Shown here: piece after piece, positions 12,133-16,949 of the stretch
Layout of the letters: every line of letters starts with the position of its first letter
Position numbering within the stretch: position 1 is the first letter of the stretch
NCBI GenBank assembly: GCA_021324115.1
Contig: JAJPJS010000025.1
Coordinates: 264,343-328,342 of the forward strand
Length of the DNA stretch: 64,000 nt
Direction: 5' to 3'
DNA from: Nitrososphaerota archaeon
GTDB lineage: Archaea; Thermoproteota; Nitrososphaeria; Conexivisphaerales; DTJL01
Notes under the pieces: model-generated
What the model saw: the letters and a program-made list of their open reading frames with translations, nothing else
Told to the model about the DNA's origin: nothing
The model's database searches: none
Translations under genes and position numbers: made by a program

Positions 12133-14478
12133 ATGAAAATACTGGTCATGATGTTATTTCTCGTCCTGCTGTTGCCATACACACAACCTCTGACACCAGA
12201 CTTTGCTTCAGCAACCGGGAGTGGAAATTCGAATAGCTATGTAATTCTCCTGCAGCCACCTTTTTCGAAAAATATTGCAGCACTCTCACAGGCATTTGAT
12301 GCGAATCTTCGGGCCATCGGGGTAGATGCAGGAAAGCCGGTTCTGTTTGGCGGGATCGGTGTGGGCGGCATATTCAATCTGACCTCCTCGGAGCTCTCTG
12401 TCATCAGACAGGTTTTCCATCCCTATCTGGTCATCCAGGACAGGCCTGTATTCCTCCAGTCGAGCTCCGGAAATACGTCCCCTCTACTGAACTGGAGCTA
12501 CTTTCCCGGGGGTCCGTATAGTGGCACGGACATCAAGGTGGCAGTAATCGATACCGGGATCGATACGTCCCTGAGCGCCCTGGGTCCTTCATTTGCATCC
12601 AGAGTTGTCGGAAGCTACAATCTGGTAAATCCAGGCTCTCCACCCAATGATACCGATGGCCACGGTACGGCCGTAGCTTCGATAATAGGGGCGGATTCTA
12701 CCAACTTTACGGGGGTTGCCCCAGGAGTCCAGCTGTTGATATACAAGGTATTCAAGGGCAATGAGACGACTTCGAATCTTCTTGTTGAAGCTCTCGACCA
12801 GGCCGCCCAGGATGGCGCATCTGTCATAAACCTCAGCCTGGGAGGGGGCCTCGACGCCGGTACGCTGTGGCAGCTTGGTTATCTTCTAAACCAGCGAGGG
12901 ATAGAACTCGTGGCGGCCGTAGGAAACGACGGTCCCGACTTGGGAACGCTCTCGATTCCGGCCGCGCTTCCTTACTTCCTCTCGGTGGGGGCGTCGACGA
13001 GTCAGTTCTCAAATCAACCCGTTGCTGAACTCTTGCTCGGATCTAACTTCACCTTCGACACAGCTCAGCCCATGGAATTCTCCCCCCTGACGAATCGCCC
13101 CGTTCAGGGCAGCTATGTATTTGTGAGAAGTGCGACCCCTGCCGAAATCGCAGGCGTGGACCTTTCCGGCAAAATAGCAGTCACGTTGAGGGATCACAAA
13201 ACAACATTCGCAGACATGGAGCAGAACGTCTCAGAAGCTGGTGCGATCGGACTTGTGGTGGTTAACGATGAAAACTCCTCCTTTCTCGGCACCCTTCAAA
13301 CGAACTCCAGCACGAGTCCATCCAAGATACCCGTTGTCAGCGTCGCATATCAGGAGGGTTACCGTCTACTAAACTCCGACCCCAACGGGACTGTTTTAAG
13401 AATGGGTATTTTCATCCCACATAACCCCTACCCCGCTCCGTTCTCATCCCGTGGGCCTGGCGGACCATTCCTTCTGAAGCCCGAGCTGATGGCGCCGGGC
13501 GACTCCGTCCCGGTTGTAACATTCCAGGGGGTGGGGCTCGAGTCGGGCACAAGCTTTTCGGCTCCACAGGTTACAGGGGCGCTTGCGCTGATTACACAGG
13601 AGCACCCGGGCCTTTCCCCCGACCAGTACTATTCGATTCTGGAGCTGTCTGCATCCCAGCTCCACACGAATGAGATCGATTTTCCCCCTTACGTGCAGGG
13701 TGCAGGCGAGCTGAATATTTCAAAAGCCCTGGCAACACCATTCACTGTTTCTCCGGGTGATTTCATCGCCCTGTACCCATATACCGGGGGCAGTTATTCA
13801 GATACAATTCATGTCAGCTTCTTTGCAAATACATCTCTCAAGGTATCCTATATCGGTGAATACCCCCTCACCCTGAACACAAGCTACCTGGACCAAACCG
13901 AAAGCGGCCTGACTGTCACGGCCTCACCTTCCTCAGGCGGGCAACTAATGTATGATCGGCTCATTTTTTCGACTAACAACATGAACTTTTCATTCCCGGT
14001 GATGGTAGAACCCTCAGCGGTTGGTGTTATCTACAACATGACAACAGGATCGTTGCAAATTGAAGGCGGGGGCGGTGGTGGGTATATAGCACAGATTACA
14101 TATCCTGATGGTACACTGCACAGTCTTACTCTCGATACATCGGGTGGAGCGGCTGACCACGTCGGTACCCCGATGCCTGGGTTTTATTTTATTGAGGTGC
14201 AGCCCCTGAACGGCAACGGGTCCACCGGGGAGGTCGGATTCGGCATGTTTTACATAGGAAGCGTAACTCAGAGCCAGTTTCCTGGCTATACCATAACCGT
14301 CTTGGCTGGCTATTCCGCTTTCTTGTGCCTGGTCGCATTTGCGATATATCTCAATCGATGGTTCAGGATACGGCGCGGACCTCGATCTGCCGTCCGGCCA
14401 CCCATTTCAGCCTGGAAGCCACCCTCTTTCTCAGCGCGTCTATTGTTTCGAACCTGCGGACTATCCTTCCGTTCCTGA
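12133..14478 (+). CDS. Secreted, membrane-anchored subtilisin-like serine protease (S8)
   Basis: A 781-residue exported protease. A signal peptide covers residues 1-25. The S8 catalytic triad is intact: Asp140 (AVIDTGID), His177 (DGHGTAVAS) and Ser474 (SGTSFSAPQ). A protease-associated domain is inserted at about 295-420, and beta domains precede a single C-terminal membrane helix (about 720-742). The last 38 residues overlap the convergent nicotinate phosphoribosyltransferase gene by 116 bp and have an arginine-rich, low-confidence composition. It starts on the ATG directly after the TAA of the phosphoesterase gene. It likely digests external protein, alongside the sedolisin at 47 kb. Confidence 0.92.
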   Translation: MKILVMMLFLVLLLPYTQPLTPDFASATGSGNSNSYVILLQPPFSKNIAALSQAFDANLRAIGVDAGKPVLFGGIGVGGIFNLTSSELSVIRQVFHPYLVIQDRPVFLQSSSGNTSPLLNWSYFPGGPYSGTDIKVAVIDTGIDTSLSALGPSFASRVVGSYNLVNPGSPPNDTDGHGTAVASIIGADSTNFTGVAPGVQLLIYKVFKGNETTSNLLVEALDQAAQDGASVINLSLGGGLDAGTLWQLGYLLNQRGIELVAAVGNDGPDLGTLSIPAALPYFLSVGASTSQFSNQPVAELLLGSNFTFDTAQPMEFSPLTNRPVQGSYVFVRSATPAEIAGVDLSGKIAVTLRDHKTTFADMEQNVSEAGAIGLVVVNDENSSFLGTLQTNSSTSPSKIPVVSVAYQEGYRLLNSDPNGTVLRMGIFIPHNPYPAPFSSRGPGGPFLLKPELMAPGDSVPVVTFQGVGLESGTSFSAPQVTGALALITQEHPGLSPDQYYSILELSASQLHTNEIDFPPYVQGAGELNISKALATPFTVSPGDFIALYPYTGGSYSDTIHVSFFANTSLKVSYIGEYPLTLNTSYLDQTESGLTVTASPSSGGQLMYDRLIFSTNNMNFSFPVMVEPSAVGVIYNMTTGSLQIEGGGGGGYIAQITYPDGTLHSLTLDTSGGAADHVGTPMPGFYFIEVQPLNGNGSTGEVGFGMFYIGSVTQSQFPGYTITVLAGYSAFLCLVAFAIYLNRWFRIRRGPRSAVRPPISAWKPPSFSARLLFRTCGLSFRS

Positions 14479-15586
14479 TTAATGGCTTCAGAAGCGGGTT
14501 GCAATTTTGTGGCCTGGCGTTACGGGCAAGAACAAGGTAATCCACCATGTTTTTTTCGTCTCTGCACACTTCTTTTTCGCCAGAAAGGTCCCCCCTCTTT
14601 GCACGGGGAATCATAACACCCCCTTTCCCCTCCACCTCAACCATCTTCATGTTGAAATCGATGGATGGCGCGTTACTTACGCTCGTGCCCACACCGAAGC
14701 CGGAAACCACATCCTGGAGTTCTCTCACATCGGATTCATCCAGCCCACCTGACACGAATATTTTGACATGTTTTCCTCCACGCAGGTTGAGCTCCCACCT
14801 GACTTCCTCGATTATCTTTCGCCAGTCGCCTCTTCTGGAGGCAGGTGTGTCCAGTCTGACCCCTTTGAGCTTCCTTCCAAGTGTTTCAAGTGCCATTATG
14901 GACTCGGTCTTTTCATCGAACAGGGTGTCGGCCAGCACGATCACATCTGATTTCTCCGGAAGAGAATCCGCAAATGCTTTCCATGCGTCTTTTTGGGAAT
15001 CAAAGCAGAGAATGAAGCTGTGTGGCATGGTACCCGCCCCTTCTATTCCGAGCAGTTTCGCTCCGCAGATGTTACTCACCCCCTCGAATCCGGCGATATA
15101 TGCAGACCTCTCTACCAGAGGAGCAAGCGCAGGGTGCGCCCTCCTTGTGCCGAAGCTCAGAAGTGTTCTATCACCTGCAGCCAACCTTATTCTTGCGGCC
15201 TTGGTTGTAAAGCCACTCGCCGAAGCTAGGAACCCGAGAAGGGGTGTTTCATACCTGGCGAAGTCGGCGTACCTCCCCTTCAGTTTCATGACGGGCTCGT
15301 ACGCTAGCTCGTTCTTGGGAACGGCAAACACTTCACCTTCATCCATCGAATCGACGTCAAGTGGCAGACCCTCAAGAAGTTTTGCCGCTTCGTACACACC
15401 GGATAAGACTCCCCACGTATCGGCGTAAGGAAGGTGCCTCGTGTACACCTCCATCGTCACCTTGGGGTTCTTCCCTATCTTTCTGAGTGCCCTTTCTGTA
15501 TTGATGAAGTAGCTGTCTGTAACCTCGGCCTTCTTGATCTCGTCCTCTCCCGATATCCAAAACATCCTGTCATCGAGGTCTTTCAT
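14363..15586 (-). CDS. pncB: Nicotinate phosphoribosyltransferase
   Basis: A 407-residue enzyme of the NAPRTase family, which couples nicotinate and PRPP to give nicotinate mononucleotide in the Preiss-Handler NAD salvage route. Visible features are the N-terminal TDSYFINTERAL, the FARYETPLLGFL segment, the SFGTRRAHP active-site loop with the autophosphorylated-His region, and the VSGGLDESDV and GVGTSVSNAP phosphate-binding turns of the TIM barrel. The C-terminus carries extra residues including CN and a basic tail. It is divergent from nadE across a 97-bp promoter region, so both NAD salvage genes sit together. Confidence 0.9.
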   Translation of the reverse strand: MKDLDDRMFWISGEDEIKKAEVTDSYFINTERALRKIGKNPKVTMEVYTRHLPYADTWGVLSGVYEAAKLLEGLPLDVDSMDEGEVFAVPKNELAYEPVMKLKGRYADFARYETPLLGFLASASGFTTKAARIRLAAGDRTLLSFGTRRAHPALAPLVERSAYIAGFEGVSNICGAKLLGIEGAGTMPHSFILCFDSQKDAWKAFADSLPEKSDVIVLADTLFDEKTESIMALETLGRKLKGVRLDTPASRRGDWRKIIEEVRWELNLRGGKHVKIFVSGGLDESDVRELQDVVSGFGVGTSVSNAPSIDFNMKMVEVEGKGGVMIPRAKRGDLSGEKEVCRDEKNMVDYLVLARNARPQNCNPLLKPLIRNGRIVRRFETIDALRKRVASRLKWVAGRQIEVRAVS

Positions 15587-15683: not shown

Positions 15684-16949
15684 ATGATGAGCGGGGCACT
15701 GGACCTCAAGGAAGCACGAGAAAGGATCGTTTCCTTCATAAGAAAACAGGTTGAAGATGCGGGAGCCGACGGTGTCATATTGGGGGTCAGCGGGGGCATC
15801 GACTCCGCTGTAACTGCTTACCTGGCCGTCGAGGCTCTGGGGAGCAGGCGAGTGCAGGCGCTCCTCATGCCTGACCCGAGGGTGACGCCGGAGTCAGATA
15901 TGAGGGATGCTTCTGCGATAGTCTCGGAACTGGGCATTAAATCTAGGACTGTGGACATTTCGACTATTCACAGGGAGTTCATGAAACAACTGGAACCGAA
16001 CAAGGTCGCAGAAGGTAATCTGAGAGCAAGGATCAGGATGGCGCTGCTTTACTACCATGCCAACCTGCACAATCTTCTGGTTCTGGGCACAGGGGACAGG
16101 TCAGAGCTGATGCTTGGATACTTCTGCTATGACGACAAAACAAGAGTCTACACGGTGGACGGTCCAAAGAGGATTGGACAGATCAGAGGGGATGAAACCA
16201 TATACTCGATGGACACAACAAGAGGGGTAATCGTTTCGGCCAGGATTGATGGAGTTTACTCTTTCGAATATGATGGCGATGTAATGGGTGTGCAGTCAGA
16301 CTTGGTCGATCTTAATGTGACCCCCAACCACAGGATGCTGGTCGGCGAACACGGAAAGGACTACCGCTTTGTTCAGGCAGAAGAATTCGCAAAAAATCGA
16401 CCCGGTTCGACATTGTGCATGGACGACGAAAAAATCAGACGAACGAAGATTTCTGGAAGCTCACCGTTCGAGAACCAGCTTCCTCTAGCATTTCCGAATC
16501 GCAAAGCGGAGGTGTATTCTGAGCACATGAAAGGCAGAGTCTGGTGTGTGGGTGTCCCCAAATATTGCAATCTGCTCGTTGAAAGGAATGGCCAGATGGC
16601 ATTTTCCGGTAACACAAAGTATGGCGATGGTGGTGTGGACCTACTTCCGATTGCAGACCTTTACAAGAGTGAGGTCAGGTCGATGGGAGAGATACTTGGT
16701 GTAAGCAGGGCAATCATATCCAAAGAGAGCAGCCCTAGGCTTTGGGCCTCTCAGACAGCTGAGAGTGAGTTGGGCCTTCCATATTCTGTCATCGATAAGA
16801 TACTGCAGCTTGACGCTGAGGGCAAATCGTCAACCAGCGTGGCAATCGAGGGGAAGGATGTAGACCCTACAGCCGTACAAGAACTTTTGACAAGGATGAG
16901 AAAGAACCACCACAAAAGGTCTTTGCCACCTGTGTGTCGACTTAGATGA
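15684..16949 (+). CDS. nadE: NH3-dependent NAD+ synthetase interrupted by a mini-intein
   Basis: A 421-residue precursor. Residues 1-147 and 311-421 form a 258-residue NAD synthetase of normal archaeal length. It has the ATP pyrophosphatase loop GVSGGIDS (about 34-41), the NLRARIRM segment, GTGDRSELMLGYF, and TKYGDGGVDLLPIADLYKSEV after the insert. Residues 148-310 are an intein that splits the invariant GYF-TKYGDGG motif, so splicing should be needed for activity. The enzyme amidates nicotinate adenine dinucleotide to NAD+. There is no glutaminase domain, so ammonia is the expected donor. The start is ATG at 15684 (or 15687), with a TATA-like GTTATACC about 20 bp upstream. It is divergent from pncB. 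Confidence 0.95.
   Translation: MMSGALDLKEARERIVSFIRKQVEDAGADGVILGVSGGIDSAVTAYLAVEALGSRRVQALLMPDPRVTPESDMRDASAIVSELGIKSRTVDISTIHREFMKQLEPNKVAEGNLRARIRMALLYYHANLHNLLVLGTGDRSELMLGYFCYDDKTRVYTVDGPKRIGQIRGDETIYSMDTTRGVIVSARIDGVYSFEYDGDVMGVQSDLVDLNVTPNHRMLVGEHGKDYRFVQAEEFAKNRPGSTLCMDDEKIRRTKISGSSPFENQLPLAFPNRKAEVYSEHMKGRVWCVGVPKYCNLLVERNGQMAFSGNTKYGDGGVDLLPIADLYKSEVRSMGEILGVSRAIISKESSPRLWASQTAESELGLPYSVIDKILQLDAEGKSSTSVAIEGKDVDPTAVQELLTRMRKNHHKRSLPPVCRLR
16125..16613 (+). other. Mini-intein in NadE (163 aa, no homing endonuclease)
   Basis: Residues 148-310 of the nadE product. Block A begins with the splice-donor Cys148 (CYDDKTRVYTVDG). Block B carries the Thr-x-x-His pattern TPNHRM with His216. 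Block F is VWCVGVPKY...LLVERNG, and the domain ends in Ser-Gly-Asn310 followed by the extein Thr311. The penultimate residue is Gly where most inteins have His, a variant also found in some phage and archaeal mini-inteins. No LAGLIDADG, HNH or GIY-YIG endonuclease fits in the roughly 55-residue linker between blocks B and F. It is therefore a class 1 mini-intein that has lost, or never had, its endonuclease. Confidence 0.92.

Follow-up and report, generated by a model that had tools for sequence, protein, structure and literature searches.

The 64,000-nucleotide stretch of archaeal DNA analysed here (the window) contains a gene for the NH3-dependent NAD+ synthetase (NadE) whose reading frame is interrupted by 163 extra residues within one of the most conserved motifs of the enzyme. 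This arrangement raises the question of whether the insertion is an intein that removes itself from the protein or a domain that stays in place. The features needed to follow the argument are listed below.

14363..15586, minus strand: divergent neighbour, nicotinate phosphoribosyltransferase (NAD salvage; NF006415, E 6.1e-141)
15684..16949, plus strand: nadE precursor gene, 421 aa plus stop
15684..16124, plus strand: NadE N-extein, 147 aa, with GYF at its end
16125..16613, plus strand: mini-intein, 163 aa
16125..16127, plus strand: Cys1, first nucleophile, invariant in 12 NadE inteins
16320..16331, plus strand: block B TPNH (Thr B:7, His B:10), invariant
16446..16499, plus strand: low-confidence linker, residues 108-125, within the stretch that holds the endonuclease in full-length relatives
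16539..16547, plus strand: block F VWC, with Cys at F:4, invariant
16608..16613, plus strand: terminal Gly-Asn (penultimate Gly and cyclising Asn), invariant
16614..16946, plus strand: NadE C-extein, 111 aa, beginning with Thr+1 (TKYGDGG)

The 421-aa open frame (15684-16949, plus strand) matches PF02540 in Pfam (E 3.9e-74) and, above cut-off, the NCBIfam models NF010587 and TIGR00552, in each case in two pieces that flank the insertion. In the window precursor, the NadE profile match stops at position 139 and restarts at 139. Alignment with Pyrococcus horikoshii NadE (2e18) pairs query residues 6-147 with chain residues 4-140, and query residues 311-415 with chain residues 141-245, so that the extein has neither gap nor overlap, and no residue is lost or duplicated at the intein site. 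Removing residues 148-310 (window 16125-16613) leaves a scarless NadE of 258 residues (421 - 163 = 258). The site lies between GYF and TKYGDGG, and the Thr, Lys, Gly, Asp and Gly of the interrupted motif are invariant in 28 NadE proteins. An initial annotation of the window had proposed a 163-residue mini-intein here, and its coordinates, lengths and residues (the Cys start, TPNH, Ser-Gly-Asn before Thr, and the 258-residue spliced product) are correct.

The nicotinate phosphoribosyltransferase gene also adjoins nadE in two other members of the window's family. A subtilisin-like serine protease gene lies near this NAD cluster (window 12133-14478, plus strand); its match to TIGR03921 (E 3e-34) is under the family cut-off.

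The insertion is under the cut-offs of the generic Pfam and NCBIfam intein models, and its identity is seen more readily from structure and profile comparison. An AlphaFold model of the window intein, built with nine NadE inteins, has a beta-rich Hint fold with a pLDDT of 80.7, in which residues 108-125 are uncertain. Foldseek against the PDB gives 46 matches at E<=0.001, which consist of inteins, bacterial intein-like (BIL) domains and Hedgehog autoprocessing domains, with TM-scores of up to 0.79. A profile of five NadE inteins, searched against the PDB, matches 6zgq (1.2e-7) and 6rpp (3.2e-6), followed by 7oec, 5bkh and 2lcj. A model of the whole precursor comprises two domains, with low confidence at each junction. 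By its predicted structure, the NadE insertion is a Hint-fold intein. The 163-aa window copy contains no endonuclease domain, only a linker.

Cys1, TPNH, VWC (Cys F:4), the block F Asn and the terminal Gly-Asn show no variation among 12 distinct NadE inteins, each of which is followed by Thr+1. For this set of conserved catalytic residues, the hypergeometric figure is about 0.001, a modest value that reflects the many invariant columns in the intein blocks. Judged by its residues (Cys1, Thr+1 and Asn163), the window intein belongs to class 1. In class 3 inteins, the nucleophile at residue 1 is absent and a Cys at F:4 serves as the branch point; a class 3 mechanism is rejected for the NadE intein, in which Cys1 is invariant despite the Cys at F:4. 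Bacterial intein-like domains are without a +1 nucleophile, and this identity is likewise rejected, given that Thr+1 is always present. The penultimate His of most inteins is replaced by Gly in every NadE intein. The initial annotation was right to note this Gly in the window copy, but because the residue is common to all 12 NadE inteins, the alignment indicates that it is an ancestral trait of the allele rather than decay in the window copy. Lack of the penultimate His often slows Asn cyclisation. Splicing without this His is documented (reference 74 of PMC4031507), and the same paper ranks Cys second in frequency among residues at F:4.

These features make it very likely that the insertion is a self-excising class 1 mini-intein within the NadE precursor, and that it is the endonuclease-free descendant of a site-specific homing intein. 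In the proposed mechanism, Cys1 would attack the Phe-Cys bond, the N-extein would be transferred to Thr+1, and the terminal Asn (Asn163) would cyclise, so that GYF and TKYGDGG would be joined in a normal 258-residue NAD+ synthetase. The conserved residues suggest that the window intein most likely still splices. Because the insertion splits a motif that is invariant in 28 NadE proteins, the unspliced precursor is probably inactive. Splicing is also probably required for the NAD supply, since there is a single NadE, with a nicotinate phosphoribosyltransferase gene adjacent to it.

The window's family has one NadE gene in each of its four genomes, and a search of these genomes for a second NadE found none; thus, if the cell requires NadE, it also requires splicing. 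Other PF02540 matches in the family genomes are mostly frames of about 520 aa that probably encode GMP synthase, and a 76-aa stretch with stops on one contig (C23) is a chance-like match.

Each of the four family genomes, which represent three genera, has a mini-intein at the NadE site, with lengths of 163, 145, 154 and 141 aa. In the other families of the order, NadE is uninterrupted wherever the gene was found. A survey of the class revealed a NadE intein in 13 of 400 genomes, namely the four of the window's family, eight of family f11 and one of family f78. The f11 and f78 inteins (nine sampled genomes) are inserted at a position identical to that of the window copy; the record of one f11 carrier is the archaeal metagenome-assembled genome JAJYYP010000042.1. 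Chance or assembly error as the source of the insertion is excluded because the insertion occurs at the same position in the three other family genomes and in nine sampled genomes from two other families. The initial annotation had named a stable insertion shared by all orthologues as the observation that would count against an intein, but most orthologues in the class have no insertion.

No NadE intein beyond those of the class was detected in a sample of 398 genomes from the phylum. Beyond the phylum, the search for NadE inteins consisted of one contig scan that used peptide patterns similar to the window protein. Viral contigs contain many inteins in general, and none of the best 80 per scan has a NadE intein; phage records gave only distant intein or NadE matches. 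A viral origin of the NadE intein is rejected on these grounds.

The complete f11 and f78 inteins comprise 380-390 aa, carry paired LAGLIDADG-type motifs and have a patchy distribution. In one of them (L077) the motifs are LLGLYLGDG and LLYGLLDSDG, and PF14528 is matched by two of the three full-length inteins tested (E 2.7e-5 to 3.7e-5). The initial annotation's statement that the intein lacks an endonuclease thus stands for the window copy, but not for the allele, since LAGLIDADG motifs occur in related inteins that occupy this site. Two full-length copies (L033 and L072) have Gly at the first catalytic Asp of the endonuclease, so some of these endonucleases are probably dead.

Several observations suggest that the full-length copies are apparently mobile. 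One genome (G443) has an uninterrupted NadE that is 70% identical to the NadE of a carrier, and is thus an intein-free close relative. The distribution of the intein on the extein tree cannot be explained with fewer than six gains or losses. One full-length copy (L078) lies in a divergent NadE: compared with G452, its intein is 63% identical but its extein only 47%. The L068 and L072 loci are about 90% identical in DNA except in the C-extein, where identity is about 73%; it falls right after the intein and recovers past the stop codon. This mosaic edge, a single case, could be a trace of homing with co-conversion. In close pairs, dN/dS is below 0.6 for all parts of nadE. Among relatives of the full-length carriers (G471, G473, G474, G475, G476 and G477), several have two nadE genes, and in G474 the intein lies inside a divergent NadE.

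The ancestor of the mini-inteins would have been a full-length homing intein specific for the NadE site that spread among archaea of one class, with invasion preceding the loss of the endonuclease in the window's family. The splicing domains of the four minis are 40-46% identical to each other, and their exteins 57-64%. Between minis and full-length inteins, identity is 42-53%, and that of the exteins 42-51%. The minis therefore resemble the full-length inteins at least as much as they resemble one another. The intein tree gives no supported grouping of the minis, whose branches are long. Two histories would account for this: rapid evolution of the minis once the endonuclease was lost, or more than one invasion of the family. 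The endonuclease may have been lost once or several times, and the tree is compatible with each of these possibilities. Given the long branches, the mini-inteins may have lost some efficiency.

The missing penultimate His and the scores under the generic intein cut-offs would fit a Hint domain that has lost splicing and persists as a stable, permanent insert in a working NadE. Such an insert is nevertheless very improbable, because all of the splicing residues, including the terminal Asn and Thr+1, are kept in 12 inteins, because the remainder of the splicing domain in the minis has meanwhile diverged to 40-46% identity, and because the insertion breaks a motif that is invariant in 28 NadE proteins. 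The presence of BIL and Hedgehog domains among the fold relatives could instead point to intein-like or Hedgehog-like autoprocessing, with cleavage at one or both junctions that leaves NadE in two pieces. This is scarcely credible, since neither Thr+1 nor the terminal Asn varies, the two exteins are intact and join without a seam, and the loss of half a NadE would leave the cell with no NAD synthetase.

A further proposal concerns what splicing is for. The initial annotation had suggested that splicing could act as a switch, an idea that is possible but speculative. The mini-intein might be kept as a conditional control of NAD synthesis, inasmuch as it is found in all four family genomes after endonuclease loss and within the sole NadE, and the conserved Cys1 and Cys F:4 could in principle respond to redox state. 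It is conceivable, if rather doubtful, that the domesticated mini-intein is a post-translational control that sets the amount of active NadE, perhaps with Cys1 and the block F Cys as redox-sensitive residues. However, its retention can be explained without regulation, because its loss would call for an exact deletion from a gene that is probably essential. Moreover, the same residues occur in the mobile full-length copies and therefore do not set the fixed copies apart, and only four genomes are involved. Regulated splicing is accordingly an unlikely reason for retention, and the reading of a self-excising mini-intein is preferred, in line with the initial annotation: the fold, the profile search of the PDB, the precise insertion, and the existence of relatives with an empty site or a full-length intein all support it.

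NadE apparently represents a host and a site not previously reported for a known kind of element. No paper on an intein in NadE or NAD synthetase was found among open-licence papers, and the NCBIfam matches include no model for an intein-containing NadE, though such models exist for other proteins. The view of the initial annotation that NadE is outside the usual intein hosts thus agrees with both searches. Inteins are concentrated in proteins of replication, repair and recombination (PMC5874633), and the NadE intein adds as a host a core metabolic enzyme, interrupted within a motif that ranks among its most conserved. Because a single site holds both full-length copies, which are apparently mobile, and copies that have no endonuclease, this is a good case for tracing the path from homing to fixation. 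A mini-intein fixed in the only gene that encodes the final step of NAD synthesis also raises the question of whether such an element is neutral baggage or a regulator. Finally, the mini-inteins (141-163 aa, with Thr+1 and a penultimate Gly) are candidate splicing tools.

Inteins or intein-like insertions also occur in other hosts. In relatives of the window's genome (L046, L067, L037, L039 and L044), inspection by eye indicates as candidate hosts ornithine cyclodeaminase-like, ThyX-like, AmmeMemoRadiSam-like, endonuclease Q / PHP-like and RadA-like proteins. Staphylococcus phage vB_Sau_Clo6 (KY794642.1; L267, 1571-3961) encodes an annotated nicotinamide phosphoribosyl transferase of about 796 aa with an intein-like insertion (CYDEETEVYT...TPNHRM...VCGN before Ser); it has a penultimate Gly, and its host is an NAD salvage enzyme.

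The same genome as the window's encodes an intein in its family B DNA polymerase, outside the window (L002 / L064, contig C26, about 212655-215954). Its junctions are NA|CFTGD...VPVGQ|SYGVMG, with a Gln end and Ser+1. The NadE intein profile matches this PolB intein (G000 C26, near 214155; E 6.5e-18), which differs from the NadE intein in host and site, in being much larger, and in its Gly-Gln end before Ser.

Among solved structures, the class 3 intein of AceL NrdHF (6zgq) has both the top TM-score (0.79) and the top profile E-value. The two inteins have Cys F:4 in common, but the AceL NrdHF intein is without a nucleophile at residue 1, whereas the NadE intein has Cys1. The archaeal class 1 mini-inteins of CDC21 (6rpp, 6rpq), Pol II (2lcj, 5bkh, 7oec) and RadA (4e2t) share with the NadE intein the Hint fold, profile similarity and the standard class 1 residues. 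Their hosts act in replication or repair, in contrast to a metabolic enzyme, and the NadE intein has Gly for the usual penultimate His and Cys for the commoner Asp at F:4. The full-length NadE inteins (for example, L068, L074 and L077) share with the window copy the host, the position, Cys1, TPNH, VWC, Gly-Asn and Thr+1. These relatives, at 380-390 aa, have paired LAGLIDADG motifs and are patchily distributed, whereas the window copy is endonuclease-free and belongs to a mini form present in every family genome seen.
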